Shown here piece by piece: positions 16,121 to 60,394 of a stretch of 64,000 nucleotides of DNA. The notes under the pieces are model-generated. The model had not been told where the DNA came from and ran no database searches. It was given only the letters and a program-made list of their open reading frames with translations. Source of the DNA: Bacteroidaceae bacterium (GTDB lineage: Bacteria > Bacteroidota > Bacteroidia > Bacteroidales > Bacteroidaceae). The stretch is from NCBI GenBank assembly GCA_017461605.1, contig JAFTXN010000004.1:1-64000 (forward strand). Reading direction: 5' to 3'. The first letter of the stretch is position 1. Each line of letters starts with the position of its first letter. A program made the position numbers and the translations under genes.

Positions 16121-16176
16121 CACAGTGCTTGTAGAATTTTCTGCAGTGTTTGTAGAAAATTCTGCAGTGCTTGCAG
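16121..16176. repeat. 21-bp phased palindrome array, locus A
   Basis: Three near-palindromes of the type CTGCAGTGCTTGCAG have cores AGTGCTT, AGTGTTT and AGTGCTT centred at 16127, 16148 and 16169, exactly 21 bp apart. AT-rich spacers 'aattttct' and 'aaaattct' separate them. They lie 77 bp upstream of the helicase start in the gene-free stretch 15920-16252, which otherwise shows nothing I can name. Confidence 0.85.
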
Positions 16177-16238
16177 ATTTTCCGCAGAGGGCGGCGATTT
16201 TCAAGCATCGTATCTCAGAAGATTTCACTCACCTTTCT

Positions 16239-16246
16239 TATATTTG
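16239..16246 (+). promoter_or_regulatory. -7 element just before the helicase start
   Basis: TATATTTG at 16239-16246 fits TAnnTTTG. With the usual 5-7 nt to the start point, transcription would begin at about 16252, on the ATG at 16253. No good -33 TTG is seen, so the call is moderate. Confidence 0.5.
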
Positions 16247-16252
16247 CAAATC

Positions 16253-17710
16253 ATGTTGAGCGATGCCTTATTACAACACATAGAGCGCGAGTTCCCTCAC
16301 GCATTCACTCCGTTGCAACACGAAGCAGCCGAAGCACTCTCACGCTTTGTGATGAGTGGTGCGCGGCGACCTGCCTTCTTGCTGCGCGGATATGCCGGCA
16401 CGGGCAAGACTTCGCTCGTAGCTGCCTTGGTGCGCACGCTCCGCGCCATCGGTCGCCCCGTCTGCCTGCTCGCTCCCACGGGCAGGGCCGCCAAGGTGTT
16501 TTCGCACTTTGCCGGGGAAAAAGCAACCACTATTCATCGCACCATCTACCGTCAACGCACTTTCAACGGCGAGGACACAGGGTTCGACTTGGGGTTCAAC
16601 AAGCTGAAAGATGCTGTCTTCATCGTCGATGAGGCTTCGATGCTTTCCATCGGTGTGGAACTGAATTCACCTTTCGGCACCGGGCACTTGCTTGACGACT
16701 TGGTGAGTTTTGTCTACCAAGGCACAGGCTGCCGACTGCTGTTGGTGGGCGACCGCGCACAATTGCCCCCGGTGGGCGAAGAGGAAAGCCCCGCACTCTG
16801 TGCCGACGTGATGAGTGCTTATGGGTTGACGGTGAGCGAAGCCAACCTTACGGAAGTGGTACGACAGGACGAGGCTTCGCCCGTACTACTGGCAGCGACA
16901 CAGCTGCGCCTTGCCATGTACACCGAACCGGACACTCCGCCGCGCATAGCCTCCGGCGGACCACGAGGCCAATTGCAGTTTCTGCCCGGCAACGAACTGA
17001 TTGAGGCCCTGGTATCAGCCTATTCGGACATGGGAACAGACGAAACCATCGTGGTGGTACCATCCAACAAACGGGCGATTGTCTACAACAATGGCATACG
17101 CGCACGCATCTTCGACCGCGAGGACGAACTCACACGCGGCGATCGGGTGATGGCTGTACGCAACAACTATTATTGGCCGGAACAGTGGAAAGCCGGACTC
17201 TCCAAAGAAGAGACCGCACGCCTACCCTTCAGCTTCATTGCCAATGGCGACACCGCCGAAGTGGTGCGCATTCGCAACATCCACGAGCAGCACGGATTTC
17301 GCTTTGCCGATGCGACCTTGCGTTTTCCCGACTACGACGAATTCGAAATGGAGTGTCGCGTGATGCTCAACACGCTGACATCGGAAGCTCCGGCCCTGAC
17401 ACAGGAAGAGAGTAGACAACTCTATGAGAACGTGTTGGCCGATTATGCCGACATACCCTCACGCCGCGAACGCATGAAGCGATTGCGCGAAGACCCTTAC
17501 TACAACGCTGTGCAACTGAAATATGCTTACGCCGTCACGTGTCACAAGGCACAAGGCGGACAATGGGCACGCGTCTTTGTGGACCAAGGACATTTGGGCA
17601 TCGAACCCACTGGCCTTTCGTACCTGCGGTGGCTCTACACCGCCATGACGCGCACCACTGACCGCTTGTACCTGGTCAACTGGCCGGAGTCGCAGCGCGA
17701 AACTTCATAA
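16253..17710 (+). CDS. RecD-like superfamily 1 DNA helicase (485 aa)
   Basis: SF1B helicase of the RecD/Dda group without RecB/RecC partners nearby. Walker A GYAGTGKTS has K52. Walker B is VFIVDEASMLS (about 125). LLLVGDRAQLPPVGEE is motif III, and the C-terminal UvrD_C_2 part has YAYAVTCHKAQGGQW and YTAMTRTTDRLYLV motifs (about 425-475). ATG 16253 is preferred to the TTG at 16244 because that codon lies inside the -7 element. The role is inferred as 5'-3' DNA unwinding in repair or replication restart. First gene of a tight + strand run, with clsA 29 bp downstream. Confidence 0.88.
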   Translation: MLSDALLQHIEREFPHAFTPLQHEAAEALSRFVMSGARRPAFLLRGYAGTGKTSLVAALVRTLRAIGRPVCLLAPTGRAAKVFSHFAGEKATTIHRTIYRQRTFNGEDTGFDLGFNKLKDAVFIVDEASMLSIGVELNSPFGTGHLLDDLVSFVYQGTGCRLLLVGDRAQLPPVGEEESPALCADVMSAYGLTVSEANLTEVVRQDEASPVLLAATQLRLAMYTEPDTPPRIASGGPRGQLQFLPGNELIEALVSAYSDMGTDETIVVVPSNKRAIVYNNGIRARIFDREDELTRGDRVMAVRNNYYWPEQWKAGLSKEETARLPFSFIANGDTAEVVRIRNIHEQHGFRFADATLRFPDYDEFEMECRVMLNTLTSEAPALTQEESRQLYENVLADYADIPSRRERMKRLREDPYYNAVQLKYAYAVTCHKAQGGQWARVFVDQGHLGIEPTGLSYLRWLYTAMTRTTDRLYLVNWPESQRETS

Positions 17711-17739
17711 CCCCATCGCCATCAACACAAATACCGCTC

Positions 17740-19161
17740 ATGTGGTTGGAGATTACAACATATAGCCTGCTCATAGCCTACGCCGTCATCGTGATAGGCA
17801 CGGCCATCGTGATACTCCTGGAAAACCGACAACCGGCCAAGACCATTGCTTGGTTGCTGGTGCTTATCGTGTTGCCGGTCATCGGATGGGTGTTTTTCTA
17901 CTTCTTCGGACAAAACGTACGCAAGGAACGCCACTTGCACAAACGCAATTTCCAAATTCTTACTCACCTGATGCACACGGCCAAACAGCAGCCACCTCCC
18001 CACGAACTGCCTGAGGCCTATGTACCACTCATCACTGCCATGCAGCGGCACAAGGGGGCATACCCCACCATGGGCAACGAATTACGGCTGCTGGAAAGCG
18101 GTGCCGACTTCATCATTGCCCTGCTGCGCGCCATCCGTGCAGCTCGCCACCACATCCACGTCGAAAGTTACATCTTCGAGGACGACCCTGTGGGACGCCT
18201 GGTGCGCGATGCTCTGACCGACAGTGCTCGGCGCGGTGTGGAAGTACGCGTGATCTACGACGATGTGGGATGCTGGCGCGTGCCACAACGCTTCTTTGAC
18301 GAGATGACACAAAACGGCATTCAGGCCGAAGCCTTTCTGCCGGTGCGTTTTCCCTCACTCACCAGCAAGGTAAACTATCGCAACCACCGCAAGATATGCA
18401 TCATCGACGGAGTGGAAGGTTTCATCGGCGGCATGAACATTGCCCAACGCTATGTGAGCCGACGCAAGGGGCAGTGGACCGACTTGCAACTGCACATCAA
18501 GGGGGCTGCGGTAGGAGCACTGCAACGCACTTTCCTCACCGATTGGCACATCGTCACTGAAGCGCTTATCACAGAGCGAAGCTATTTTCCCGACAACCGG
18601 GACATGCATCGCGGAGGCCTCATGCAAATCATCGATGCCACACCTGTGTCGCAGTATCCCGAGATAGAGTTCGGACTGGTGTGGGTCAGCATGCACGCCA
18701 AGCGATACCTGTACCTGCAAACGCCTTACTTCATGCCCACCGAACCGATGCTCAATGCGCTAAAAGTGGCTGCACTTGCCGGCACTGATGTGCGCATCAT
18801 GGTGCCGCAGAAGCCGGATGCCTTCTGGCTGCGTCTGGCCAATGACAGCTACTTCTCCGACCTGCTCAAGGCGGGGATACGCGTCTTCACCTATTCGCCG
18901 GGATTTCTGCATAGCAAGAGCGCCGTGGCCGACGACACCTGGTGTTCGGTCGGCTCGTCCAACATCGACTTCCGTTCGTTTGAAAACAACTTCGAGAGCA
19001 ACGCATTCATCTACGATGCCGACACGGCACAGCAGATGCGCGACATCTTCCTGCGCAACCAGCAGGAATGCGAAGAGATGGTGCTCAAGGAATGGCGCAA
19101 GCGACCCTTGCTGAACCGCTGTATCGAATCGCTGACGCGCATCATGTCGCCATTGTTCTGA
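17740..19161 (+). CDS. cls: Cardiolipin synthase, ClsA type (473 aa)
   Basis: Phospholipase D superfamily enzyme that joins two phosphatidylglycerols into cardiolipin at the inner membrane. Two N-terminal transmembrane helices (about residues 5-27 and 37-58) precede two HxKxxxxD motifs, the first at H216/K218/D223 (NHRKICIIDG) and the second at H391/K393 (LHSKSAVADD). Both are intact, so the enzyme should be active. Length is typical for ClsA. The next gene, a C10 protease, begins 23 bp after the stop. Confidence 0.92.
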   Translation: MWLEITTYSLLIAYAVIVIGTAIVILLENRQPAKTIAWLLVLIVLPVIGWVFFYFFGQNVRKERHLHKRNFQILTHLMHTAKQQPPPHELPEAYVPLITAMQRHKGAYPTMGNELRLLESGADFIIALLRAIRAARHHIHVESYIFEDDPVGRLVRDALTDSARRGVEVRVIYDDVGCWRVPQRFFDEMTQNGIQAEAFLPVRFPSLTSKVNYRNHRKICIIDGVEGFIGGMNIAQRYVSRRKGQWTDLQLHIKGAAVGALQRTFLTDWHIVTEALITERSYFPDNRDMHRGGLMQIIDATPVSQYPEIEFGLVWVSMHAKRYLYLQTPYFMPTEPMLNALKVAALAGTDVRIMVPQKPDAFWLRLANDSYFSDLLKAGIRVFTYSPGFLHSKSAVADDTWCSVGSSNIDFRSFENNFESNAFIYDADTAQQMRDIFLRNQQECEEMVLKEWRKRPLLNRCIESLTRIMSPLF

Positions 19162-19184
19162 ACCCTCCACAAAAAAGACGTATT

Positions 19185-21137
19185 ATGCTTATTCCTACAC
19201 ATAAACACCACTCACGCATCCTCGGTTTCGTCCTGGGTATCTGCCTATGGCTTGGGGCTTTTGGCACCCACCATCTTACGGCACAGCCCATCGACCTCGA
19301 AACTGCCAAACAGCGAGCGAGAATGTTCTTCAGCACGGCACAACAGAGCCGCAGCACACAGAAGGTTCGCCGGATGCTGGCGCAGCACGAAGAGGTTGTT
19401 GCGAAACAGCAGGGATGCACCTGGCTGCTGTGCGGAAGCGATGGTGCGTTTGTGCTGGCTGCCGCAGACAAATCGCTGCCGCCGGTGCTCGGCTACGGAA
19501 GCCATGCCGGACAACAACTGCCGCCGGCCTTGCGTTTTCCGAACAACGTCAATTGGTACACAAGTGCTTCGCCCGTTCCCCAACGGCCCACCCAACCCGT
19601 AGGACCGTTGCTACCCATGATCCGACACCAGTCTGCCCCCTACAACGCGCATTGCCCCTTCTACCGACACGAGGATGGCACGCTCAGCAGCGAGCGTTGC
19701 GTGGTGGGATGCGTCGCCACGGCACTGGAGGAGATTATCACTTATTACCGCAGGCCGGTGGAATTGCTCGACACGCTGCACGGATGGAGCACAGACCATT
19801 ATGACATCGCAGACGTGCTTCCCGGCACACGCGTGGAGACAGCCGGCATTCTGAACGACTACGACGGACTGTCGGCCGGGGAGGCCGAGGAGGTGGCACG
19901 CCTCTCCTATCTCTGCGGAGTGGCAGCCCACATGAACTGGGGGCCGGAGGAAAGCGGTGCAAACATCTGCAATCTGCCCGAGCCGCTGCGCCGGGCTTTC
20001 GGGTGGCAATATGCACACTGTCTCGACAGCTACAAATTCCGCCCACAGGACTGGCACGATTTGCTCGACCGTGAGCTACACGCCGGACGGCCGGTGCTCT
20101 ACACGGGATACACCATGAAAATGGCCGGACACGCCTTCGTCATCGACGGACTGGACGCGCAGGGCTTCTACCACATCAACTGGGGATATGGAGGCGACTT
20201 CGACGGTTACTTCTGCCTTGAGACCCTCTACTTCGGCGAAGACCGCAACCACATGACCGAGCAGGGAATGTATGACGGCTTCTTCTGCAACCAGCAAGCC
20301 CTTGTGCTGTGTCCCGACAGCGTGGCTGAAGCTTTGCCCGACACACTGGCACGCACAGGATGGGAAATTGCTGTGGACTCCGTGCGGTGGGAACAGCCAC
20401 CAAGCACTCGAAAATACACGCAAATGCAACTGTATCTGCGCAACACCACCGAAGATACGCTCACCACACCTCTGGAGATATTCACCAATGCACCCGAAGA
20501 CACAGCCTACTTTGAGCAAGGCGACTATGTGGCACTGACAGGACTGACAATGGGGCCCAAGGAGAGCCGTAGGCTCACGATAACTACCAACTTCAGAAAG
20601 GCAGGAGAACGTGTGCTACGCATATCGCCTGACGATGTAGCCGTGATATGGGAGCAGCCCATCAGCGTGGCAGAGGGTCAATACACCAACCCCGAGACGG
20701 CAGCACCCATCGTGCAGGTGCTCTCGGACAACACGCTGCGAGCCTCCGTCGAAATGAACAACACATCGGCCGAAAGAGCCGGCACATACCTCGTGCTCTG
20801 CCTCCTCCCCGAAGAAAGCATGAAGGACGAAACCGAAATCAATCACACGCACTACGTTTTTCTGGAAGCCGGCGAGCACCGCACATACACTTCCGACTTC
20901 ACGCACCTGAAGCCCGGAAGAAAATACACCTTGGTGGTGCGCCAACCCTGGACGGTGCGCTACAGTGTCGACATACGCATGCCCGATGCCACCGGCGTGA
21001 ACGAAGTGGAAACAGAGACGCTACCCGACATCTGGTACCTGCCCGACGGACGCCGAATAAAACATCCACAAGCGCCGGGCGTGTATCTGCGCAAACGGGG
21101 AAGCCGGGTGGAAAAAATCTATTGGGAACAACCATGA
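19185..21137 (+). CDS. Secreted C10-family cysteine protease (650 aa)
   Basis: Streptopain-like peptidase. The ATG at 19185 begins a signal sequence (HSRILGFVLGICLWLGAFG, cleavage near residue 33). A propeptide follows to about 130. The catalytic region contains C176 in VVGCVATALEEI and H316 in AGHAFVIDG, with the INWGYGG tryptophan loop after it. Residues 390-600 form beta-rich repeats. The end (DIWYLPDGRRIKHPQAPGVY and following) resembles the tails of the other secreted proteins here. C10 enzymes are secreted proteases of anaerobic Bacteroidetes and streptococci. The stop overlaps the next start (ATGA). No separate inhibitor gene was seen. Confidence 0.9.
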   Translation: MLIPTHKHHSRILGFVLGICLWLGAFGTHHLTAQPIDLETAKQRARMFFSTAQQSRSTQKVRRMLAQHEEVVAKQQGCTWLLCGSDGAFVLAAADKSLPPVLGYGSHAGQQLPPALRFPNNVNWYTSASPVPQRPTQPVGPLLPMIRHQSAPYNAHCPFYRHEDGTLSSERCVVGCVATALEEIITYYRRPVELLDTLHGWSTDHYDIADVLPGTRVETAGILNDYDGLSAGEAEEVARLSYLCGVAAHMNWGPEESGANICNLPEPLRRAFGWQYAHCLDSYKFRPQDWHDLLDRELHAGRPVLYTGYTMKMAGHAFVIDGLDAQGFYHINWGYGGDFDGYFCLETLYFGEDRNHMTEQGMYDGFFCNQQALVLCPDSVAEALPDTLARTGWEIAVDSVRWEQPPSTRKYTQMQLYLRNTTEDTLTTPLEIFTNAPEDTAYFEQGDYVALTGLTMGPKESRRLTITTNFRKAGERVLRISPDDVAVIWEQPISVAEGQYTNPETAAPIVQVLSDNTLRASVEMNNTSAERAGTYLVLCLLPEESMKDETEINHTHYVFLEAGEHRTYTSDFTHLKPGRKYTLVVRQPWTVRYSVDIRMPDATGVNEVETETLPDIWYLPDGRRIKHPQAPGVYLRKRGSRVEKIYWEQP

Positions 21138-21553
21138 AGCAAGCCGCACGCATCACCCTGCGCTCACGTTTCGGATGGGGCGAGGAGCACGAAGAAACCA
21201 TGGAACAACACACCGGCAGCCTCAGCGTGTCGGAGCGCGGACTGCTGTTGCGCTACCGCACCGACGAGCCTGGCGACGTGCTGATTTCGGCCACCGACGA
21301 ACGCATCACCATACGGCGCGAAGGAGCTGTGAGAAGCTCCATGGTGCTGTGTAAAGGCTGCACCCACCCCATGGCATACACCACAGCCATGGGCACACTG
21401 CGCATCGAGGTGCGCACCCTCGACTTCGCCATCCGCAGGCCCGAGAGGGACGCTCCACCAACCGCAGGAGAAATCACGGCACGCTACGAACTGCTGAACG
21501 ATGGCGAGGCCGTGTCATCGCACTGGCTGCACATCATTTTCGAAACACTTTAA
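21134..21553 (+). CDS. DUF1934-type small beta-barrel protein (139 aa)
   Basis: ATG 21134 overlaps the C10 protease stop by four bases (ATGA), which indicates translational coupling. The sequence fits the DUF1934/YwiB calycin-like family: alternating beta strands, G-x-L-x-V-x-ERGLLLRYRTDE, and a central 'TIRREGAVRSSMVL' strand. There is no signal peptide. The calycin fold resembles protease inhibitors, and the overlap with a C10 protease makes an inhibitory or immunity role thinkable, but this is speculation. The family has no established function. Confidence 0.75.
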   Translation: MKQAARITLRSRFGWGEEHEETMEQHTGSLSVSERGLLLRYRTDEPGDVLISATDERITIRREGAVRSSMVLCKGCTHPMAYTTAMGTLRIEVRTLDFAIRRPERDAPPTAGEITARYELLNDGEAVSSHWLHIIFETL

Positions 21554-21563
21554 GCCAATCTAT

Positions 21564-22934: not shown

Positions 22935-22958
22935 ATCACCCACACACTTTCAACCAGC

Positions 22959-23000: not shown

Positions 23001-23065
23001 GTGTATGCAAAGGCCGCAATGACTCGACAGAATGAAGAAAGCGCAACACGCTTCACATACTCTCC

Positions 23066-23140
23066 CTGCAAGCACTGCATAGAAAATCCGCAGTGCTTGC
23101 AGATTTTTTTGCAGTGCTTGCAGAATTTTCTAAACGCCGT
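23066..23140. repeat. 21-bp phased palindrome array, locus B
   Basis: Cores AAGCACT (centre 23073), AGTGCTT (23095), AGTGCTT (23116) and ACGCCGT (23137) are spaced 22, 21 and 21 bp. The first three have TGC/GCA arms. The fourth lies in 'ctaaacgccgtgtaaa', a sequence also found at locus D. The array lies 186 bp upstream of the GH20 start. Confidence 0.85.
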
Positions 23141-23294
23141 GTAAATTTATGTACACCGAACGGATGTTTTTCAGACAAAACGAAAGAAAAATCCTTATGC
23201 CACTTTCACAACGGCATATAGTTGAAAAAAGTTAATCTACAGCATTTTCACATGCTTTGGGGCACAAGCAGTTTCTCCAAACCAAATTTTGACG

Positions 23295-29727: not shown

Positions 29728-29822
29728 GTGTATGTCAAAGCGGCTTCCACACCATCGTCTCCTCCCTCCCGAGCATCGCCCGAAGCACTCCGACAAGCGT
29801 GCTCAGGGCATTTGGCATCTCC

Positions 29823-29882
29823 CTGCAAGCACTGCAAGTTTGTTATCACTACGATGATAAATCCTTATCACTGTAATGATAA
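29823..29882. repeat. 21-22 bp phased palindrome array, locus C
   Basis: Three palindromes are CTGCAAGCACTGCA (centre 29830), TTATCACTACGATGATAA (29843-29860, centre 29851.5) and TTATCACTGTAATGATAA (29865-29882, centre 29873.5). Spacing is 21.5 and 22 bp. The last two have TTATCA/TGATAA arms, unlike other loci. About 190 bp upstream of the MATE gene. Confidence 0.8.
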
Positions 29883-32650: not shown

Positions 32651-32677
32651 ATGTTCGGCTCCCATTCCGGAGAAATC

Positions 32678-32732
32678 TACACGGCGTTTAGAAAATCCTG
32701 CAAGCACTGCAGAAAATTCTAAACGCCGTGTA
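32678..32732. repeat. 55-nt inverted repeat with phased cores, locus D
   Basis: Arms of 25 bp (32678-32702 and 32708-32732) pair at 22 positions around AGCAC. The outer arm contains ACACGGCGTTTAG and its complement. Near-palindromic cores ACGGCGT (centre 32684), AAGCACT (32705) and ACGCCGT (32726) are exactly 21 bp apart, so this fits the phased array family. It lies between convergent genes, 27 bp past the phosphoesterase stop. Confidence 0.85.
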
Positions 32733-32792
32733 AACTTTTGCACTTCCCGAGCACATTTTCCCGGCAAAGTGTCAGCAGACTCTGCATACAAC

Positions 32793-33906: not shown

Positions 33907-36900
33907 TCACTTGATGTAAATCTTCTTTCCGTCCACGATGTAGATGCCGGCACCGGCAATGCGCTGCAAACGGCGTCCGCTGAGGTCGTAGATGGCATTC
34001 TGCTTCGCCGTAGTGGTCGGGAGCGCAATACCCTCGGGTACTTCGGCCTTGTAGATTACTTTCACCACCACGTGACCGGTCACGGCTTCTGTCAGCTCGG
34101 CACCTTCGATTTTCTCCAAGGTGTAACCTTCGAACGAAGGCGCAACGAGGGTGTATCCTTCACCTGCTTTTACCAAAGCCGTGGTGCTTCCCAGCTCGGT
34201 GTCGTCGGTGCTAACAGCTTGAACAGTTACTGTGAAATAAGGCTGAACGTAGTATTCGAACACCTTGTAGGGATGGCCATAAGTGTGCCAGCCGGTCATG
34301 CTTCCGGCCACACCGTCCCAATACTGTCCGTTGGAGCCTTGCACTTTCCATGTCTCACCATCGGCGTTGAGCGTGAAGGTGAAATTGTCGCCCGACTTGT
34401 TTAGGATGACCTTACCGCTCTGCGTGAGTTTCGGTATATAGAGGCCGGTATATTCGTTCTTGACCTTAAACTTTGTGCCGTTCTTCTCAAGGGTCCACAC
34501 ATAGTAGGGGTTGGTGTCTTCGATGCTTCCGGCCTGCATCACCTGCAGAGTGGTGGGATTGACATTGCGGTAGCCGATGCGCTCGGTGGCATTGGGTGAC
34601 GTGTCATACAGCACATAGGAGTGCCCGTTCTGCAACTGCGAAACGGCAGGACCGAGTTGGCGAACACCGCTCCAAGCCTCTGTTTCGTAGGTAGCCGTGA
34701 TGGTAACGTCGGACTCGGGGGTGAAAGTGGTGTTTCCCTCCAGGTCGGAAGATGCATAGGTGTAGTAATCGTGCTCGGGATATTCGGCCGTGTAGCTCTC
34801 GCCCACAGGACATGCCGCTTCCTCTACAGAGATCAGCGCACCGCGTGCGTCGCGGCTCACCATGGTCACAGCGTAAGCCGAACGGCGATAAACGACGCGC
34901 ATCGTGAGGTCGGCCGTGAGCGCATCCACTGTGGGAGCTTCCGCCAGGCTCTCATCACCATAAGCCACGGGTTCGTGATTCTTGATCTCAGGAACTACGA
35001 CGGTGTAAGCCTCACCTGTAGTTGCACTGGTGCGATAGGTGCCCAGCGCATTGCCCTGTTCGTCCTCGCAGACATAGGTTACCACTTGTACGGGAGCAAT
35101 GTGCCAAGCTGCACCCACCACGCGAGTGGCATTGCGTCCGTTGATGGACGATCCGGAGCTCACGATGCCAGGCAGCGAAGCCGATGTATGCGGCACGGGA
35201 TAGAGGTTCTTCTCACCGGAAGCGAGGGTATAATCGCCCGTAACGACATCGAACACACACACAATGTCTCCACCGGTATTACCTACCGACACAGGATAGG
35301 CCACATAGCCCGTGGTACTTCCTGCTGCACTTCCCACAGAACGGCCGGTCTGCTTGTTGCGCAGCCGAACGGTTTGCGAATAGTCTGCCTTGATGGTGGA
35401 TTTCGTTACCTCCCATGCATCATCCGCCCAACGGTCGGCCGAATGTTGCAGTTGCGTTGCCTTGCCGTTATCCACAAAGGCTGTGTTTTCAAAACCCTCA
35501 ACGGCATTACTGATACGGTAAGTAGCGCCTTCCTGCATGTAGCCGAACGACTGGCGCAGGGCTGCATAAGCCTCAGCAAAGGAGGTTGAGAAGGCTGCCA
35601 GTTCTTCGGCTGTCATGCCGGCAGGGTCGGCAGTAGCGATGAGTTGTTGCAAGGCTTCGGCCTCGGCTGCGCCAAAACAGCCCGGCACCTTGGCATCGCC
35701 CTCGTACGTCTTTATATTATTAAGGAATGCTTTTGCTTCCTCCACTTGTGCCACCACATCTTCAGCACCGGCAGCACCATTCACAGGCATCGCACTCCAA
35801 TGACCGCCACTACCGCTTCCGGGATCGGTGTAGAGGTTCACGGCGAGCCCCTGCCCACTCATCGAAGCGTTCAGGTACCAGCCGTTTGTCTTGCTGCTAC
35901 GGATGGTATAGTAGTAGGTCTCGCCATCGTCGTTCCGGCCGTAGCCTTTCTCGCCGAGCAAGAACTGATAGTGCTTCGTGCTGTTGTCGTAACTCCAACG
36001 GCCGGTGACGCCTGTGGTTGAGGGAGTGGCATTCAGCGAACCTTCGGGTAGCGCCTTGCACACCAAGGCATAGCGTCCGGCGTTGGCGGGATCTTCCTCG
36101 AAAGCCCAGAGCTGATAATCGTAAGCGGCTTCGCCCTCTGCAGCCTGGGGAGCTGTCCAGAGCACACCTGCGGCGGCACCCTTGCCGGAATACTCGCCGA
36201 TGAGCGGAGAGCCCTCGGCCAACAATTCGAAGCAGCGGCCGACACGGGTATCATCGGTGGCGCGAGTCACGATGCGATACCAGTATTTCTCAGTGGCGGT
36301 GGAGGATTTCGGCATTACCATTTCCTCTTCACCGGAAGCACTGCCCTTACCGATGTAATGCTTTCCGTAATTGTATCCATTGTAGTTGAGCATCACAGTA
36401 TCGGCTGTGATGCGTTGGCAGAAGCTGTTGAAGTTTTTGCGAGCCGCAGGTGTCCATCCCGTCTCGGCGATGGCGATGAGGCGCGGCAAAGCCAGATATT
36501 CCATCAGCTCACGATCGGCCACATGCTCTGTCCAGAAAGTTCCCTGCACGCCGGTATAGAAGGCCTTCTGCGCAGTGGTAATGCCCGAAGAGGGCACAGG
36601 CACTTCGTTGTATGTGGCTTGCAGATTGTCCGTACCGCCTCCGGCCAAAGTGGCTTCGCAGGCATCCATACTCTGTCGGCGGTTGATGTAATAAGGACCC
36701 CACGGAGTGTAAACATTGTCGAGTCCGAGTTGTGCCGCACGCTTTGCGCCATCGGAAGCAGGGTAGCTCCATGCCCACACATACACTCCGGCTTCCTGCA
36801 TCAGCTTTGTGTCGGCACCGCCGGCGGTGATGGCTTCGTTCCAAACGCAGGTACGACGTCCGTGCTCCTTGAAGAAATCGGCCATCTCCTTGATGAAGTG

Positions 36901-37989
36901 CGACTGAAGTTGACGATAAGACGTCAGACCCAATTCCTTATATTTGGCCTGACACAGAGCATTTCCTTCCCAGGCACTGGTGGGACACTCATCGCCACCT
37001 ATGTGCACATACTGACCGGGGAAGATATCGAGCAGTTCGGTCCAAATATCCTTAACAAACTGCACGGCTGCAGGGTCGGCCACATTGAGAACGTCCGAGG
37101 AGATACCACCGCTTGTCCATACTTTCCGACCTGCCGATGGGTTACAGCTGAATTCGGGATAAGCCACCAGTGCTGCCACGAAGTGACCCGGCATGTCGAA
37201 CTCGGGAATCACCTCGATGTGGCGTGCTTTGGCATAAGCGACAACCTCACGCAGCTCATCCTGTGTATAGAAGAAAGGACCGTACTGTGCGTTTGTCCAA
37301 TAGGGACCGTACTCCAGCGATGTGGCGTAGCAGTTGTCGGCCGTCGCCCCCACGGTGGTGAGTTTCGGATACTTCTTTATCTCCACGCGCCAGCCTTGGT
37401 CGTCGCTGAGGTGCCAATGGAAATAATTCATCTTATAGGCCGCCATGATGTCGATCATACGCTTGACTTCGGCCACAGTGAAGAAGTGACGCGCCACGTC
37501 GAGCATAAATCCGCGGTAGGCGAAGCGAGGTTCGTCGTTGATGGTTACGCACGGCAGAGCATAGCGTTCAACTTTGGGGTCGGTAACTCCGGCCATCACA
37601 TTGCCGGGCAGCATCTTCTTGATGCTCTGGAAGGCATAGAAGAAGCCGCGGGCCGTGCTGGCCTCGATGCTTACATTCTCGCCCACGGTGAGCGAATATC
37701 CCTCCGCCGAAGCGTCGTTCAGACTCATCGTGATGAGTGCTTCGCCCGAAGCCACTGCTGTGGCCTCATAGCCTGTAGCGGCATTGAAGTCGGCCACAAA
37801 GTGTTCGGCCTCGGCAGCAATACTGTCCGGCAGGCCGGCATAGCTCACAGCGAACGCACGAGGCAGAACCAACTCGCCCGTCCCCACAGTCATACTCTTG
37901 GGAGTAGGCGTCAGATTCACAAAGGTTTGTGCCATGGAAGTGCTTACACAGAGCACTAACAACATCGTACAAATCAGAAGTCTCTTCAT
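33907..37989 (-). CDS. Secreted GH20 beta-N-acetylhexosaminidase with lectin-like and MucBP-like modules (1360 aa)
   Basis: Signal peptide at residues 1-20. GH20b (about 22-150), then a catalytic barrel (about 155-520) with 'RGFMLDVARHFFTV', HWHLSDDQGWR, and the acid pair D333-E334 in YVHIGGDECP. C-terminal to it: a ricin/trefoil-like segment (about 560-745), a FIVAR-like helical stretch (about 750-820), a second trefoil-like unit, two MucBP-like repeats (about 960-1105, 'YVCEDEQGNALGTYRTSA' and 'MVSRDARGALISVEEAA'), another trefoil-like unit, a third MucBP-like repeat and the tail AIYDLSGRRLQRIAGAGIYI. Removes terminal HexNAc from host glycans at the cell surface. Leader of about 108 nt from a TATCTTTG element at 38103-38110. 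Confidence 0.9.
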   Translation of the reverse strand: MKRLLICTMLLVLCVSTSMAQTFVNLTPTPKSMTVGTGELVLPRAFAVSYAGLPDSIAAEAEHFVADFNAATGYEATAVASGEALITMSLNDASAEGYSLTVGENVSIEASTARGFFYAFQSIKKMLPGNVMAGVTDPKVERYALPCVTINDEPRFAYRGFMLDVARHFFTVAEVKRMIDIMAAYKMNYFHWHLSDDQGWRVEIKKYPKLTTVGATADNCYATSLEYGPYWTNAQYGPFFYTQDELREVVAYAKARHIEVIPEFDMPGHFVAALVAYPEFSCNPSAGRKVWTSGGISSDVLNVADPAAVQFVKDIWTELLDIFPGQYVHIGGDECPTSAWEGNALCQAKYKELGLTSYRQLQSHFIKEMADFFKEHGRRTCVWNEAITAGGADTKLMQEAGVYVWAWSYPASDGAKRAAQLGLDNVYTPWGPYYINRRQSMDACEATLAGGGTDNLQATYNEVPVPSSGITTAQKAFYTGVQGTFWTEHVADRELMEYLALPRLIAIAETGWTPAARKNFNSFCQRITADTVMLNYNGYNYGKHYIGKGSASGEEEMVMPKSSTATEKYWYRIVTRATDDTRVGRCFELLAEGSPLIGEYSGKGAAAGVLWTAPQAAEGEAAYDYQLWAFEEDPANAGRYALVCKALPEGSLNATPSTTGVTGRWSYDNSTKHYQFLLGEKGYGRNDDGETYYYTIRSSKTNGWYLNASMSGQGLAVNLYTDPGSGSGGHWSAMPVNGAAGAEDVVAQVEEAKAFLNNIKTYEGDAKVPGCFGAAEAEALQQLIATADPAGMTAEELAAFSTSFAEAYAALRQSFGYMQEGATYRISNAVEGFENTAFVDNGKATQLQHSADRWADDAWEVTKSTIKADYSQTVRLRNKQTGRSVGSAAGSTTGYVAYPVSVGNTGGDIVCVFDVVTGDYTLASGEKNLYPVPHTSASLPGIVSSGSSINGRNATRVVGAAWHIAPVQVVTYVCEDEQGNALGTYRTSATTGEAYTVVVPEIKNHEPVAYGDESLAEAPTVDALTADLTMRVVYRRSAYAVTMVSRDARGALISVEEAACPVGESYTAEYPEHDYYTYASSDLEGNTTFTPESDVTITATYETEAWSGVRQLGPAVSQLQNGHSYVLYDTSPNATERIGYRNVNPTTLQVMQAGSIEDTNPYYVWTLEKNGTKFKVKNEYTGLYIPKLTQSGKVILNKSGDNFTFTLNADGETWKVQGSNGQYWDGVAGSMTGWHTYGHPYKVFEYYVQPYFTVTVQAVSTDDTELGSTTALVKAGEGYTLVAPSFEGYTLEKIEGAELTEAVTGHVVVKVIYKAEVPEGIALPTTTAKQNAIYDLSGRRLQRIAGAGIYIVDGKKIYIK

Positions 37990-38210: not shown

Positions 38211-38305
38211 GGAGGCTTCTCGTAAAAACTGGCAAGGCTTGCCAGAAAAGTGGCAAGCACTGCCAAAAAAGTGGCAAGGCCTGCCACTTTTCGCCGAAAG
38301 CCTCC
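38211..38305. repeat. 21-bp phased palindrome array, locus H
   Basis: Three strong palindromes are GGCAAGGCTTGCC, GGCAAGCACTGCC and GGCAAGGCCTGCC, with cores centred at 38237, 38258 and 38279, exactly 21 bp apart. Weaker outer units GGAGGCTT (centre about 38215) and AAGCCTCC (about 38301) form an inverted repeat around the array. Arms are GGC/GCC here, not TGC/GCA. It lies between the divergent GH20 and AspT-type genes and fills most of the 463-bp gap. Confidence 0.88.
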
Positions 38306-45015: not shown

Positions 45016-45150
45016 AAGTCTAAGCACACTACTATGCAATACATAGTACTATCTATTTTCTTCTATTTAGCATTTATTAAGATTTGCACCAAGTTTGGAA
45101 AATCCGTCTCGCCCTCCGCATCGGGCTGACACTTTGCTGAAAAATCGGCC

Positions 45151-45242
45151 TCCAAGTGGACAAAAATCTACAAGCACTGCAGATTTTTCCGGAAGCACTG
45201 CAGAAAATTCTACAAGCACTGCAGAATTTCGCAGAAAGCCTC
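45151..45242. repeat. 21-bp phased palindrome array, locus E
   Basis: Three AAGCACTGCAGA cores are centred at 45175, 45196 and 45217 (21 and 21 bp), with TCCAAGTGGA (45151-45160) about 20 bp before and AAAGCCTCC (about 45239) after. Spacers are AT-rich. The array sits mid-way between the divergent padR and fur-like genes. The rest of the gap (45243-45466) holds 'cgcgcgcgtacg..' and a T/A-rich block with nothing else recognised. Confidence 0.88.
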
Positions 45243-49359: not shown

Positions 49360-49627
49360 ATAATAAAATGTTACTTCGTACAAAGAAAACGCAGATATTG
49401 CTGCAGCGTTTTCCCGACCGCAGGAAGGTTTTTGCTCCTACAGTACAAAACTTGCTATCTCCCATAGGAAGTTTTTCACACTGCGACCTTCAAATTATTG
49501 TTAAAGGTCCGACTTTTCATCCTGCGCTCCACATTCTTTTGCTAACTTGCGACAGTTTTTGAGCCGGCGAGTAAAAATCTAATCGGCGCATACCTATTTT
49601 TCACACGGCACACATAATATATTATAT

Positions 49628-50281: not shown

Positions 50282-50285
50282 CCGG

Positions 50286-53618: not shown

Positions 53619-53640
53619 GTGCTCGCAAGGGGGCTTTATG

Positions 53641-53745
53641 CGCAGTGCTTTCCCGTTTTTTCACAAGCACTGCAGAATTTTCCGAACGCCTTGCAGATTT
53701 CTGCCGAAGCATTGTGCAAAGGCGCGCACCGCCTGCAAGCACTCC
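53641..53745. repeat. 21-bp phased palindrome array, locus G (five positions)
   Basis: Cores AGTGCTT (centre 53647), AAGCACT (53668), ACGCCTT (53689), AAGCATT (53710) and ACCGCCT (53731) are all 21 bp apart. A further AAGCACT lies out of phase at 53740. The array lies between divergent tetR and leuB, about 200 bp upstream of leuB. The fifth core is the weakest. Confidence 0.82.
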
Positions 53746-53879: not shown

Positions 53880-53939
53880 CATTCGGATGTTTTCGCATCC
53901 CGCTTCAAAAAAGTTCAAAACCAAGAAAAAACATAGCTT

Positions 53940-55001: not shown

Positions 55002-55052
55002 GCCACATAGATTACGGACAGCCCGAAGAAAAGCGTTGATCCTATAAACATA

Positions 55053-55097
55053 AAACGAGGAGCGGATGCCATCCTTACGCATCCGTTCCTCGTTTTT
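55053..55097 (+). terminator. Terminator of leuB
   Basis: AAACGAGGAGCGGATGC (55053-55069) and GCATCCGTTCCTCGTTT (55079-55095), one mismatch, followed by TT. Confidence 0.85.
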
Positions 55098-55154
55098 AGC
55101 ACTCCCCTCCGGCAAGCTATCCGTGCTTTCTTGGTGCGCTTCACCCCTTTTTCG

Positions 55155-55162
55155 TAATTTTG
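55155..55162 (+). promoter_or_regulatory. -7 element of queA
   Basis: TAATTTTG fits TAnnTTTG, with TTGG about 20 bp upstream (55131-55134). Start near 55168, leader of about 16 nt to ATG 55184, which excludes the TTG at 55160. Confidence 0.6.
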
Positions 55163-55183
55163 CACCGTTTTCAAGAAATACGC

Positions 55184-56425
55184 ATGACACACGACCCACG
55201 ACACATACGCATCAGCGACTATGCCTACGGGCTACCCGACGAACGCATTGCCAAGTATCCCATGGCCGAACGCGATGCATCAAAACTTCTCATCTATCGC
55301 GACGGTTCCGTTAGCGAGGATGGATTTCGCCACATAGCGGACCACCTGCCCGAAGGAGCACTGATGGTTTTCAACAACACACGCGTCATCCGTGCCCGTT
55401 TGCACTTCAACAAGTCGACAGGCGCACAGATTGAGGTGTTCTGCCTCGAGCCGCACACACCAGCCGACTACCAACTCACCTTTGCCGCTAAGGGAAGCTG
55501 CACTTGGACCTGCCTCATCGGAAACCTGAAGAAGTGGAAAGAAGGAGCACTGGAGCGAAACATCCCGATGGGAGAGAAAAGCGTTTGCCTCAAGGCAGAA
55601 CGCATCGGAGTGAGCGGAACAGGACACGAAGTGCGTTTCAGTTGGGACCAACCGGATGTGAGTTGGGCCGAAGTGCTCGAAGCCATTGGCGAACTGCCTA
55701 TCCCACCCTACCTCAACCGAGCCACAGAAACGAGCGACCTGAGTACATATCAGACGGTCTATTCCAAAATCAAGGGCAGTGTAGCCGCACCTACCGCCGG
55801 CCTGCACTTCACTCCGGCCGTGCTGGAGGCCATCGACCGCAAAGGTATCGAACGAAACGAGATAACACTACACGTGGGCGCCGGCACCTTCAAGCCGGTG
55901 AAAAGTGAGGAAATAGGCGGACACGCCATGCATGCCGAATGGGTGGCTGTGCCGCGCGAAAGCATCGAGCGCCTGCTGGCTCACGGCGGAGAGTGCATCG
56001 CCGTGGGAACGACCAGTGTGCGTACTCTCGAAAGCCTCTACTATGTGGGCGTGATGCTTGCCCGCAATCCGGAAGCCACGCAAGACGATTTGCATGTGCC
56101 TCAGTGGTTGCCCTACGAGTATGCCGAAACCGCTGAAGCCCCACTCAGCACCTGCGAAGCCCTGCAGAACATTCTGGACTACCTCGACCGAAATGCGCTG
56201 CCGGTGCTGCACACTTCCACACAGATTATCATCGCACCGGGCTACCGTTATCACATTGTCCGCGCCATAGTGACGAATTTTCACCAGCCACAAAGCACCT
56301 TGCTGCTCTTGGTGTCGGCCTTTGTGGGTGAGGACTGGAAAAACATCTATCGCTATGCCCTCGAGCACGACTTCCGTTTTCTGAGTTACGGAGACAGTTC
56401 GCTGCTTTTCCCGAAGCAAGTATAA
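55184..56425 (+). CDS. queA: S-adenosylmethionine:tRNA ribosyltransferase-isomerase, long Bacteroidetes form (413 aa)
   Basis: Queuosine pathway enzyme that transfers the ribosyl group of SAM to preQ1 in tRNA. Motifs: MVFNNTRVIRARLHFNK, PPYL, TYQTVYSKIKGSVAAPTAGLHFTP, LHVGAGTFKPV, VGTTSVRTLESL and the end TNFHQPQSTLLLLVSAFVG. About 60 residues longer than E. coli QueA because of inserts near residues 85-130 and 295-330, normal for Bacteroidales. No other queuosine gene is adjacent. Confidence 0.93.
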   Translation: MTHDPRHIRISDYAYGLPDERIAKYPMAERDASKLLIYRDGSVSEDGFRHIADHLPEGALMVFNNTRVIRARLHFNKSTGAQIEVFCLEPHTPADYQLTFAAKGSCTWTCLIGNLKKWKEGALERNIPMGEKSVCLKAERIGVSGTGHEVRFSWDQPDVSWAEVLEAIGELPIPPYLNRATETSDLSTYQTVYSKIKGSVAAPTAGLHFTPAVLEAIDRKGIERNEITLHVGAGTFKPVKSEEIGGHAMHAEWVAVPRESIERLLAHGGECIAVGTTSVRTLESLYYVGVMLARNPEATQDDLHVPQWLPYEYAETAEAPLSTCEALQNILDYLDRNALPVLHTSTQIIIAPGYRYHIVRAIVTNFHQPQSTLLLLVSAFVGEDWKNIYRYALEHDFRFLSYGDSSLLFPKQV

Positions 56426-56441
56426 ATCTCACAACACAACA

Positions 56442-56487
56442 AAAATCCCTCCCCGAAGCAATCACACACTTCGGGGAGGGATTTTTG
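56442..56487. terminator. Bidirectional terminator between queA and cimA-like gene
   Basis: AAAAATCCCTCCCCGAAG (56442-56459) and CTTCGGGGAGGGATTTTT (56470-56487), perfect 18-bp arms with a 10-nt loop, T-run on both strands. Confidence 0.93.
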
Positions 56488-56537
56488 TATTTTATCAACA
56501 AGGTTTCAGCCCGCGGGTGGGCCTCCGGTCGCCTGCA

Positions 56538-58085
56538 TCAACACGGCTCGCTGTCGGTCGCCGCATTCTGCGCATTGTCCTCCAGGAGGTTCAGCATCTT
56601 CACCGTAGCCTTGATGGCCGCATCGGTTTGGTCGGCATCGAGGCCTCGGGTGCGAAACACCTTCTCGCCCAGACGCCAAGTGATAACGGCTTGCACCAAA
56701 GCATCCGTGCGACCGCCGGGCGGGATGGTAACATAGTAGCCCTCCAGCAAAGGGAAGTCGCGGCGCAACTCGTGCTCGTAGATATTTCGGAGTCCCCGCA
56801 TGAAAGCATCATACTGGCCGTTACCACTCGCATTGGCTTCGTAGGCTTTTCCGTCAATCTCGATGCGAAACGACGCCGTGGGTTTCAGACCATAGGCCGT
56901 GGTTACAAAATAACTCACCAAGCGCACACGATTATCGGCAGTGCTCTGCCGAAGCACGTCAGACACGATGTAAGGCAGGTCGTCGGGTGTAACAACTTCC
57001 TTCTTGTCTCCCAACTCGATGATACGCTGTGTTACGGCACGTGCCTGCTCTGCCGTAATCTCCAGTCCCAATGCTTCAAGATTTTTGAGGATATTGGCTT
57101 TTCCGCTATTCTTTCCCAAAGCATACTCACGCTGTCTGCCAAAACGTTCGGGCAACAAAGCATTGCAATAGAGTCCGCTCTTGTTATCGCCGTCGGCATG
57201 CACACCCGCCACCTGTGTGAATACATTTTCGCCCACGATGGGACGATTGGCCGGCACCGCGATGCCGCTATAGCTCTCCACCAAGCGACTTGTTTCATAA
57301 AGCCGACTCTCATCCACAGACGTCTCGGCTGAAAAGTGGTCGTGCAGCAAGGCTTGCACACTCGAGAGCGGCGCATTGCCGGCTCGCTCGCCCAACCCGT
57401 TGACGGCCGTGTGGATGCCATTGAACCCACTGCGCACGGCTGCCGACACATTGGCGATGGCCAGGTCGTAGTCGTTGTGTGCGTGGAAGTCGAAGTGTAA
57501 ATTCGGGTAACGCCGCCGCATCTTCCGCATATAGGTCTGCGCCAGCAGCGGATTGAGCACACCCAACGTATCCGGCAACATAAAACGTCGCACTGCCGAC
57601 TGTGCGAGCGCATCGACCAGGGCGAAAACATACTCCGGCTCTTGCATTCCGTTACTCCAATCCTCCAGATACACATTCACCGTGAGGCCGGCAGCTGTGG
57701 CTCTTTCCACTTCGGCCAACACGTCTGCGATGTGCTGCTCGGGGCTTTTTCGCAGTTGCAGTTCGCAATGACGACGCGACCCCTTGCAGAGCAGATTCAT
57801 CACACGGCCACCGCAGGACTTTATCCAGTCTATGGAAATTCCGCCATCCACAAATCCCAACACCTCAACGCGCTCCAGCATTCCGTGGCGTGCAGCCCAA
57901 CGACAGATGTCGCCCACGGCCTGACGCTCACCCTGCGACACGCGAGCCGAAGCCACCTCAACGCGATCCACCCCCACACTGCGCAAGAGTTGTTTGGCAA
58001 TGTGGAGTTTCTCATGAGGCAGGAACGATACGCCGCTGGTCTGTTCGCCATCGCGCAGCGTGGTGTCCATGATTTCTATTCTCAT
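56538..58085 (-). CDS. LeuA-like DRE-TIM synthase, probable citramalate synthase (515 aa)
   Basis: [16 protein letters not shown] is the DRE-TIM metallolyase opening with the catalytic R-D. HAHNDYDLAIAN supplies the metal histidines, and NGLGERAGNAPL and GVHADGDNKSGLY follow. A LeuA-type allosteric domain lies at about residues 380-500 (RLVSYFVTTAYGLKPTASFRIEID). It differs from the true leuA in this window (60854-62350) throughout. Bacteroidales carry such a second LeuA-like gene in the leu cluster, often suggested as citramalate synthase (isoleucine from pyruvate) or a paralogue of isopropylmalate synthase. Substrate not settled by sequence. It starts 24 bp after leuD. Confidence 0.8.
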   Translation of the reverse strand: MRIEIMDTTLRDGEQTSGVSFLPHEKLHIAKQLLRSVGVDRVEVASARVSQGERQAVGDICRWAARHGMLERVEVLGFVDGGISIDWIKSCGGRVMNLLCKGSRRHCELQLRKSPEQHIADVLAEVERATAAGLTVNVYLEDWSNGMQEPEYVFALVDALAQSAVRRFMLPDTLGVLNPLLAQTYMRKMRRRYPNLHFDFHAHNDYDLAIANVSAAVRSGFNGIHTAVNGLGERAGNAPLSSVQALLHDHFSAETSVDESRLYETSRLVESYSGIAVPANRPIVGENVFTQVAGVHADGDNKSGLYCNALLPERFGRQREYALGKNSGKANILKNLEALGLEITAEQARAVTQRIIELGDKKEVVTPDDLPYIVSDVLRQSTADNRVRLVSYFVTTAYGLKPTASFRIEIDGKAYEANASGNGQYDAFMRGLRNIYEHELRRDFPLLEGYYVTIPPGGRTDALVQAVITWRLGEKVFRTRGLDADQTDAAIKATVKMLNLLEDNAQNAATDSEPC

Positions 58086-58109
58086 AGTCGGAACTTCAAT
58101 AACGTTTGT

Positions 58110-58694
58110 TCAATGTTGGGCTTCCCACTGCTCGATTTTCTCCTTGTTCTCCAAGAGATAGTCAATGTCGTCGAGCGCGTTCATGAGGCAATACTTCTTG
58201 TAGCCATTGAGCTCAAAACTTTCGGAACGTCCCGTGGCCTCATTCGTGATGGTCTGCGCAGGGACGTCCACCGTGACCAGCGTCTTGGCATCGGCCTCTA
58301 TGCTCTTGAAGAGTTCGGCAAGAAAATCCTCGCTCACGACCACGGGAAGCACAAAGTTGTTTAGCTCATTCTGCTTGTGGATGTCGGCAAAGAAACTACT
58401 GACCACGACCCTGAAGCCATAGCCTGCGATGGCCCAGGCGGCATGTTCGCGACTGCTTCCGCAACCGAAGTTTTTGCCGGCCACGAGTATCTCTCCCGAG
58501 TAGGCGGGGTCGTTCAGCACGAAGTCTTTCGGCGTTCCGTCGGGTGCATAGCGCCAATCGCGGAACAAGTTCTCACCAAACCCCTCCTTGTCGGTGGCTT
58601 TGAGGAAGCGCGCCGGAATGATTTGGTCGGTATCTACGTTTTCGAGCGGCAGGGGTACACAAGTGCTCTTGATGATATTGAATTTCTGTTTCAT
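58110..58694 (-). CDS. leuD: 3-isopropylmalate dehydratase small subunit (194 aa)
   Basis: Swivel-domain subunit that pairs with LeuC. N-terminal [22 protein letters not shown], conserved [23 protein letters not shown] and [14 protein letters not shown] motifs. Length is about 195, standard. It lies 32 bp after leuC and before the cimA-like gene on the same strand. Confidence 0.97.
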
Positions 58695-58726
58695 GTTTCA
58701 AAATTTGAGAAAGGCGTTACAACTTT

Positions 58727-60106
58727 TCAGGATAGAAAATCGCGCGGATCGGTAATCACTCCGGTAACTGCAGCTGCGGCGGCCACCAGCGGCGAAGCGA
58801 GGCAGGTGCGTGCGCCGGGACCTTGGCGTCCCTCGAAATTGCGGTTCGAAGTTGAGACCGCCAGTTTGCCGGCCGGAATCTTGTCATCGTTCATCGCCAA
58901 ACAGGCGGAGCATCCCGGCTGACGGATTTCGAAACCGGCCTCTGCCAGCACCACATCCAGCCCCTCGGCCTTGATTTGCTCCAACACCTTCCACGAGCCC
59001 GGCACCAGCCATGCCGTCACTCCGTCGGCCTTGCGGCGGCCCTTGGCAATGGATGCGAAAGCACGAAAATCCTCAATGCGACCATTGGTGCAGGCACCGA
59101 GGAAAACGTAGTCTACCGGTGTGCCGACCATGCGTTGGCCTGCCGAAAAACGCATATAGGCCAGGGCTTTCTCGTCGGAGGCATTCTGGGGTTCGGGAAT
59201 GGTTTGCGAAATTCCGATGCCCATTCCCGGATTTGTTCCGTAGGTAATCATCGGTTCGATGTCGGCCGCGTCAAAGGTTTCTTCACGGTCGAACACGGCG
59301 TCTTCACCGCTTCGGAGCGTGCGCCAATAGGCCACGGCCTTTTCCCACTCGGCACCCTGTGGTGCGTAGGGGCGGCCTTTGATGTAGTCGAAAGTGGTTT
59401 CGTCGGGGGCCACAAAGCCTCCGCGCGCTCCCATCTCGATGCTGAGATTGCAGAGCGTGAGTCGGCCTTCCATCGAGAGTGCTTGCACAGTGCTGCCGGC
59501 ATACTCTACAAAATATCCCGTGGCACCGCTGGTTGTGATTTTACTCATTATATATAATGCCACGTCCTTGGCCGTAACTCCCGGACGCAATGCGCCGTTC
59601 ACAGAGATGCGCATTGACTTGGGCTTGCTCTGAAGGATGCATTGCGACGCCAAGACCTGCTCCACCTCGCTCGTTCCTATACCAAATGACACGGCTCCCA
59701 TGGCTCCGTGGGTCGAGGTGTGCGAATCGCCACACACGATGGTCATTCCCGGCAACGAGAGTCCCTGCTCCGGACCTACCACGTGGATAATTCCGTTGTT
59801 GGGGTGCATCATTCCGAAGTGCGTCAGGCCAAAATCGGCTGCATTCTGCGCCAACGTGTCCACCTGATGACGCGATACGGGGTCCTCGATGGGTTTGTCC
59901 TGATCGTGCGTCGGTGTGTTGTGATCGGGCATACAAACAATCTGATCGGGGCGGAAACATTTCAGTCCGCGTGCCCGCATACCGGCAAAGGCTTGCGGAC
60001 TTGTTACCTCGTGACAGTAGAGGCGGTCGATGTAGAGCTGTGTGGGGCCATCGGGTACGCACTGCACCACATGGGCATCCCAGATTTTGTCGAAAAGTGT
60101 ATTCAT
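58727..60106 (-). CDS. leuC: 3-isopropylmalate dehydratase large subunit (459 aa)
   Basis: Aconitase-family [4Fe-4S] enzyme isomerising isopropylmalate. The iron-sulfur cysteines are in [13 protein letters not shown] (about residue 340) and GCSACLAMN (about 400-405), both present. [15 protein letters not shown] and [24 protein letters not shown] are substrate and fold motifs. Its start at 60106 is 463 bp downstream of the previous gene, and a phased palindrome array lies in that gap. Confidence 0.97.
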
Positions 60107-60321
60107 ATCTGTTGTTTTGTTTCAATTCTTCACAATGCTTTCCGCGTCTTGCTTCCGGCCCTCCGATGATGCCGGGCGCTCTGCCGAAAGTTAGGAACGG
60201 CGAATGTACGACTTAAAAACGCTTTTTACAACATTTTCACACCAAAAAGCGTCTTTTTCGTGGCTTTTTGCCACACAAACACCCAATTTCTGCATTTTCT
60301 GTCCGTATCCGGCATCTTTGC

Positions 60322-60394
60322 AAAGGCTTTCGGAAAATATCTCACGCCTTGACACGCGCGTATCAAGCGCTTGACACAAAAATATCAAGGCGTG
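60322..60394. repeat. 21-bp phased palindrome array, locus I
   Basis: Palindromes AAAGGCTTT (centre 60326), TCACGCCTTGA (60347), TCAAGCGCTTGA (60368.5) and TCAAGGCGTGA (60390) are spaced 21 to 21.5 bp. The arms are TC/GA, different from every other locus. It lies 216 bp upstream of leuC and 86 bp from the terminator at 60480-60510. The gap 60107-60479 otherwise shows nothing I can name. Confidence 0.85.

Follow-up and report, generated by a model that had tools for sequence, protein, structure and literature searches.

Palindromes scattered chromosome-wide for recognition by one protein are known from the parS, matS, Noc and SlmA sites, which stand singly or in loose groups and keep their letters between species, and ARG boxes have a layout of 18 + 3 bp. 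Repetitive extragenic palindromes (REPs) and bacterial interspersed mosaic elements (BIMEs) are described in the sections of PMC3733652 used here as short palindromic repeats of high copy number that are intergenic, fall into species-specific families and often stand opposed and close; the spacing of REP dimers is given as variable, 20–100 bp in most, and their location as mainly tandem and convergent intervals. For the arginine repressor ArgR, the part of PMC7248756 drawn upon reports that tandem palindromes engage four subunits of one hexamer, the contacts falling in four consecutive major-groove openings along a single DNA face. The BrickBuilt elements of Porphyromonas gingivalis, miniature inverted-repeat transposable elements (MITEs) of the Bacteroidales, comprise 23-nt direct repeats in up to 22.8 copies at 19 loci, with a leader, a tail and IS5-type inverted ends, according to the excerpts of PMC4596501 at hand. 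Here we describe intergenic arrays of near-palindromes centred 21 bp apart in a 64,000-nucleotide stretch of a Bacteroidaceae genome (the window; positions 1 to 64,000 of contig JAFTXN010000004.1, assembly GCA_017461605.1). Extragenic palindromes themselves are well known; what appears new is a 21-bp plan that is kept across species under changing letters. A preliminary description of the window had known no family with this plan, and none was found in the literature searched, subscription papers being mostly outside its reach.

The window has a G+C content of 54% and belongs to contig 1 of a 2.06-Mb assembly, 81% complete (the source genome). The host appears to be an Alloprevotella-like metagenome-assembled genome, its kin by protein search being Alloprevotella and unclassified Bacteroidales. 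It was compared with other genomes of the genus (G-numbers), of which G019 is the nearest relative found. Arrays were detected as triples of arm palindromes at 21-bp pitch with AT-rich spacers, using a threshold of 13 for the window. Only the arms were scored because scoring of the full eight-pair palindrome fails to bring out the window arrays, the common core AAGCACT not being itself palindromic. Genes were called with our own codon-model script, without use of annotation, and shuffled controls were first-order Markov samples of intergenic DNA. Imperfect palindromes do stand at the unit centres listed in the preliminary description, 21 (sometimes 20 or 22) bp apart. Of the eight arrays that it proposed, A, B, C, D, E and H passed the palindrome-triple test, whereas G and I fell below threshold; the window detections were exactly these six places, against a mean of 0.65 and a maximum of 2 in shuffled intergenic DNA.

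Across the source genome the family is dispersed, as had been supposed: the 15-mer TGCAAGCACTGCAGA occurs in 85 copies, its reversed control in none. Phasing at 21 bp also exceeded that of shuffled DNA, with 88 intergenic triples at period 21.0 against 14.5 in the source genome and 50 against 8.1 in G019, and period 21.0 gave the highest triple count among all periods from 16 to 30. Source-genome counts outside 20–21.5 bp were 18–35 against 11–15 in shuffled DNA, an approximately twofold excess, so that a fair background is about twice as high as the shuffles imply. When units were identified by core sequence and arms, 458 were found in the source genome, and 124 of the 135 neighbour pairs at 20–22 bp were exactly 21 bp apart (117 of 132 in G019). 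These units formed 49 runs of three, 19 of two and 6 of four, with 249 solitary, whereas one shuffled copy yielded 141 units, of which a single pair stood 19 bp apart and none formed a run of three. The AT-spacer detector at threshold 14 returned 22 intergenic and 5 genic arrays (crude gene calls) in one 400-kb contig part, and 0.5 arrays in shuffled DNA matched in length to the intergenic DNA of that part. TCTGCA-N5-TGCAGA, with spacers resembling AAAATT, is the common unit; array H represents another family (F2), with the arms TGGCA..TGCCA, and smaller families are those of C, of I and an ATATAT-spaced one. Half-site variants are mixed, for example TCTAAACG alongside TCTGCAAG.

Placement was counted on the codon-model gene calls in 844 kb of the source genome (41%), taking intervals of at least 80 bp. 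The arrays had been thought to lie only between genes; 84 of 93 detections did so, and by eye ∼7 of these seem to be chance matches. The 84 arrays fill 82 of 336 intervals, 80 of which hold one array and 2 hold two, where length-weighted chance expects 13.7 intervals with two or more; one of the two doubly occupied intervals is a single array split by another repeat. Divergent intervals held 27 arrays (24.0 expected by length), tandem intervals 49 (44.5) and convergent intervals 8 (15.5). In tandem intervals the median position was 139 bp past the upstream stop and 219 bp ahead of the next start, and, in tandem and divergent intervals alike, array midpoints came no closer than 70 bp to a start. 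Even spacing of arrays along the chromosome is weak, 4.6% of simulations being equally even. A tail resembling CAAAGTGTCA was matched in 19 of the 84 arrays and started 39 bp from a unit centre in 18 of them (14 directly and 4 after a 21-bp shift, the detector having centred one unit early; the conversion to 39 bp was reckoned by hand); the nineteenth match is the split array. Many arrays open with an A run and close with a T run, and whole arrays are often inverted repeats.

At orthologous loci the arrays are conserved over a short distance. Among 96 orthologous intergenic pairs of the source genome and G019 (median gene identity 85%), an array was detected in both members of 18 pairs, in neither of 60, in the source genome only in 9 and in G019 only in 9 (Fisher p = 5e-7), bearing out the expectation of conservation in a relative. 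At least 4 of the 9 source-only cases (array E and three others) have a sub-threshold array in G019 by eye, and the source-only detection at window position 49418 resembles chance. Units were swapped and cores inverted in place; in array D, the middle unit changed from AGCAC to GTGCT in G019, as hairpin-loop inversion would give. The ratio of gaps to mismatches was 55 to 168 in arrays and 343 to 551 in flanks, that is, fewer gaps in arrays (p = 1e-4, 21 loci; the aligner also gapped flipped cores). Two arrays of the source genome hold a different ∼55–85-bp repeat (core AAAGCCCAAAGGCTTTCCGC) and are uninterrupted in G019 (L009, ∼11781–11930, and L011, ∼18841–18950; G000:C9 at 171.8 and 218.9 kb).

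Several sister species share the plan and not the letters, which the preliminary description had not foreseen. The source-genome 13-mer was found 95 times in the source genome and 124 times in G019; the remaining genomes scanned, 35 from the genus and 24 from different families, had 0–2 copies apiece. With one motif per species counted in 58 genus genomes, each motif was essentially private, the other genomes having 0–6 copies each. The motif AACTTAC..GTAAGTT of G010 has 145 copies there and none elsewhere; GTTACAAACTTTGTAAC of G036 has 209, with one in G061 and none in the others; the G061 motif has 122 and none elsewhere; the G076 motif has 57, with six in G033 and one each in three others; and the motif of G064, whose array letters are TAAACCAAGGTTTGGTTTA, has 123 when up to two mismatches are allowed, with five in G035 and one each in G061 and G019. 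Triples at period 21.0 numbered 13 against 0.3 in G010, where 11 of 15 listed places clearly carry that motif by eye, and 6 against 0.0 in G036, where 4 of 7 listed places carry GTTACAAACTTTGTAAC; G077 and G062 had 2 triples each (0.1 and 0.4 expected). Among the places listed, neighbours <150 bp apart stood at multiples of 21 in G036 (41 of 41), G010 (13 of 13) and G064 (30 of 30), as did same-strand neighbours in G076 (11 of 11) and G061 (3 of 3), and opposite-strand neighbours in G076 stood at 18 bp (5) or 39 bp (3), those in G061 all at 14 bp (14 of 14); these counts cover the first listed places per genome, with coordinates transcribed by hand and, for some genomes, only contigs with neighbours. 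Private motifs at spacings that are multiples of 21 bp point to a common plan written in letters peculiar to each lineage. Non-palindromic units AAGTGGCGCAGG and ACTCGGCACTTAG occur at ∼21–22 bp in both orientations in the upstream part of L051 and in L189 (2290–2790), and are a related plan minus the palindromy of the unit.

From these observations we infer a DNA-binding protein, its oligomer, its role and the spread of the copies. The arrays would be dispersed clusters of operators for an oligomeric protein working from one DNA face. Each unit, a palindrome of ∼17–19 bp, would be bound by one protein dimer, and three to five units at 21 bp would align the dimers along a single helix face, able to join as one oligomer. 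Cooperative binding on one face is favored because a two-turn pitch in unrelated letters is hard to obtain from hairpins, terminators or slippage. Copying and renewal of the array family would outpace the divergence of genes under an unchanged two-turn spacing rule, giving each lineage its own letters. Spread and turnover in the manner of a repeat family are argued by letters that are private to each lineage and by the failure to detect shared loci outside the close pair. We give about even chances to this combination of operator clusters read by an oligomeric protein and renewed as a repeat family. The two natures can be held together: the arrays exist in many copies, by a copying mechanism that we can only suppose, and they may serve as operators. 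Since an interval holds at most one array with rare exceptions, about a quarter of intervals are occupied and the arrays stay away from starts, a role between transcription units is suggested, either in chromosome organization or in broad transcriptional control. It is possible, though we would sooner expect otherwise, that in this oligomer-read system with three to five dimer sites the letters of the sites and the specificity of the protein are replaced together in each lineage. If so, the arrays would parallel, in bacteria, the sites of centromeres or recombination hotspots that are rapidly re-spelled. The persistence of the 21-bp plan under changing letters would open to test how at least 100 dispersed sites switch recognition sequence in step, and points to a missing chromosome-wide DNA-binding protein.

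In the spacing of their centers the arrays resemble the targets of ArgR and AhrC, ARG boxes also being tandem palindromes about two turns apart, and ArgR offers a precedent for a single oligomer reading such palindromes from one face (PMC7248756). In contrast to ARG boxes, the array letters vary between species and are unlike the box (compared without model scoring), and there are 57–209 motif copies per genome. ArgR hits were found in 48 of 58 genomes, one each apart from two in G026; G019, G010, G036 and G064 have one each and the source genome, at 81% completeness, has none. ArgR as the binder of the arrays is not supported. Unlike the sites of the parS, matS, Noc and SlmA type, the arrays are phased groups whose letters change between species.

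Several results weigh against operator clusters as the explanation. The binding protein is hypothetical, and the spread of one sequence to many copies is also how a selfish repeat behaves. The preliminary description had envisaged selection on symmetry, visible as compensatory changes in the arms; in 347 arm-pair cells at 21 loci compared with G019, 218 were paired and unchanged, 54 had lost or gained pairing, 74 were unpaired in both and only 1 was a double change that remained paired (21 of 27 source-genome arrays were used, 5 being dropped as unaligned and 1 as over the length limit). With 1 double change against 54 one-sided changes, complementarity is not tracked by double changes over this distance, so the claim that the arms stay complementary holds between families but not as compensation at orthologous loci. 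The units of G076 are direct and not palindromic, and one locus of G064 bears a 22-bp GTTTCA array in addition, so that neither palindromy nor the 21-bp pitch is absolute. The palindrome detector gave nothing at 21.0 bp in 60–100 kb each of G004, G005, G032 and G081 (four of nine other species sampled); either the 21-bp plan is not universal or it escapes this detector in these four genomes and G076. The presence of an array upstream of the same gene showed no association between the source genome and G010, G036 or G064 (4 both, 19 source only, 7 other only and 27 neither; p = 1.0, 57 gene pairs, a small sample), nor did its presence downstream (p = 1.0, 45 pairs), and flanking gene pairs gave 13 pairs in all, too few for a comparison of loci. 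Motif-bearing intervals of G010 were 4 convergent, 9 tandem and 3 divergent, convergent intervals carrying the motif there, unlike in the source genome.

The strongest rival is a purely selfish REP- or MITE-like extragenic repeat with no host role, moved by some activity that recognizes the 21-bp pattern; we hold it to be a real but lesser possibility. In its favor, a single sequence reaches many copies in each genome, the letters are private to each lineage, and no sharing of loci could be detected between species whose letters differ. The fixed-distance tail on 18 arrays is like the end of an element, and another repeat and an insertion-sequence-like piece sit within some arrays. MITEs are marked by terminal inverted repeats, target duplications and clean empty sites; whole arrays are often inverted repeats. 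Against the rival, no clean empty site was seen by eye in the 14 one-sided cases of the source genome and G019 displayed (4 pairs over 650 bp were skipped), and rare double occupancy is unlike random landing. Nor was a cognate transposase seen in a search for Y1 transposases, the one family sought. The single Y1 hit of the source genome (G000:C10, gene 84498–84836; L116) carries an NQKEHH motif and is flanked by other, GC-rich repeats with GCCCCGTTGGGGC hairpins, and none was hit in G010 (86% complete), whose motif copies number 145; no tie to REP-associated tyrosine transposases was found. In the part of PMC6006769 consulted, the NQKEHH motif marks Y1 transposase subclass 1.2, which is tabled without REP-like structures.

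Compared with REPs and BIMEs themselves, with which they share the general traits given above, the arrays have three to five units, commonly occupy divergent intervals in the source genome and have a fixed 21-bp pitch, as opposed to the variable dimer spacing recorded in the consulted sections of PMC3733652; this fixed pitch also counts against the selfish repeat. The GTAG/CGTC foot of REPs and BIMEs is not constant by eye in source-genome array stretches, GTAG occurring where an arm reads TGTAGA, and the mainly tandem and convergent placement of REPs, downstream of genes, is not that of the source genome (divergent 27, tandem 49, convergent 8). Because tag, transposase tie, spacing and source-genome position differ, we set the arrays as a variant beside REPs and BIMEs, their nearest known class; a categorically new system is conceivable. 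The likeness to BrickBuilt extends to an intergenic, species-specific family of tandem short units in Bacteroidales, on the same excerpts of PMC4596501, but identity was rejected, the array unit being 21 bp and not a 23-nt direct repeat (IS5-like ends were not searched for).

We consider it improbable that the arrays act as RNA or single-stranded DNA hairpins, that is, as bidirectional terminators, mRNA stabilizers or insulators. The palindromic units, the A run that begins and the T run that ends many arrays, and the core flips, which we take to fit hairpin-loop inversion, would suit such a function. A gut-metagenome survey lists 250 palindromic structured-RNA candidates, some of them restricted to Bacteroidetes and 230 with predicted terminators (PMC8040213). 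However, divergent intervals are occupied (27 of 84 arrays, 24.0 expected) and convergent ones are short of arrays (8 of 84, 15.5 expected), hairpins do not require a 21-bp pitch, Rfam gave no match at gathering scores, and the arms break without compensation. Canonical terminators were equally common at gene ends with an array (14 of 62) and without (48 of 169; p = 0.41); neither this comparison nor the interval types gave any sign that arrays take the place of intrinsic terminators at gene ends.

A purely mutational origin, in which tandem duplication sets the length of the unit and palindromy is maintained by template switching at hairpins, has similarly little to recommend it: core inversions between orthologous arrays, the likeness of units within a genome and one-sided arm changes agree with it, but it would leave unexplained why unrelated sets of letters have an identical 21-bp pitch, why the arrays are intergenic and why double occupancy is rare. 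CRISPR was rejected on spacers that are ∼4–5 bp, AT-rich and alike and not unique ones of repeat length (cas genes were not searched for). For carriage on plasmids or phages, a blastn search with array D alone gave no match. The 15-mer was present in at least 120 stretches of viral contigs; the 80 listed had one match each and none was an array, although in 3 of these 80 a single neighbor at a phased distance scored 5 of 6 arm pairs. Two two-unit patterns had 0 matches.

Within the window, array A (16119–16177) has three TCTGCA-type units with centers at 16127, 16148 and 16169, in a divergent interval between an enoyl-ACP reductase-like gene and a RecD2-helicase-like gene; its tail, of the type GATTTTTG...GGCCGTTTTTC...CAAAGTGT, lies at 16077–16118 on the minus strand, its motif beginning 39 bp from the center of the last unit, and the G019 interval is shorter and has no array. 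Array B (23065–23145) has four units, centered at 23073, 23095, 23116 and 23137, in a tandem interval and has a counterpart at the orthologous G019 locus. Array C (29822–29882) lies upstream of a MATE transporter gene, also in a tandem interval; its first unit is of the CTGCA type and the other two are TTATCA..TGATAA palindromes. Array D (32676–32734), in a convergent interval, has three units, the outer two being near-perfect inverted copies of each other, and a plus-strand tail at 32735–32776 that ends in CAAAGTGTCAGC. Array H (38229–38287), upstream of an aspartate-alanine-exchanger-like permease gene, has three TGGCA..TGCCA units and occupies a divergent interval; at the orthologous locus (L041/L053) the array is present with changed cores and the same inner arms. 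The three units of array E (45167–45225), with a minus-strand tail match at 45125–45166, stand in a divergent interval upstream of a Fur-family gene, where G019 has other units; E is intergenic by the codon-model calls, a crude open-reading-frame call having run over it.

Array G (53639–53739), below the detector threshold, comprises five degenerate units in a divergent interval upstream of leuB, and G019 has a degenerate five-unit series at this locus. Array I (60318–60398), likewise below threshold, lies in a tandem interval upstream of leuC and belongs to a small family (F4, ATATCAAG..CTTGA); its first listed unit (60326) is doubtful. The G019 locus keeps the first two units, the rest being cut by an insertion-sequence-like stretch. 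That stretch resembles the start of an insertion sequence (L141, G019:C33 40001–58001, near contig position 57830–58001). Six of the eight arrays had been placed ∼75–400 bp upstream of a gene start; the distance is borne out, and the number is seven, all except D.

Elsewhere in the window, a 1981-amino acid minus-strand protein is encoded at 830–6775, its only match being a sub-threshold one to a ricin-type lectin, and a very long minus-strand protein at 33907–37989 is a GH20 glycosidase with a MucBP match. A 20-bp tandem repeat of 3.2 copies, outside the array family, lies at 7105–7166 in the long interval 6752–7548.

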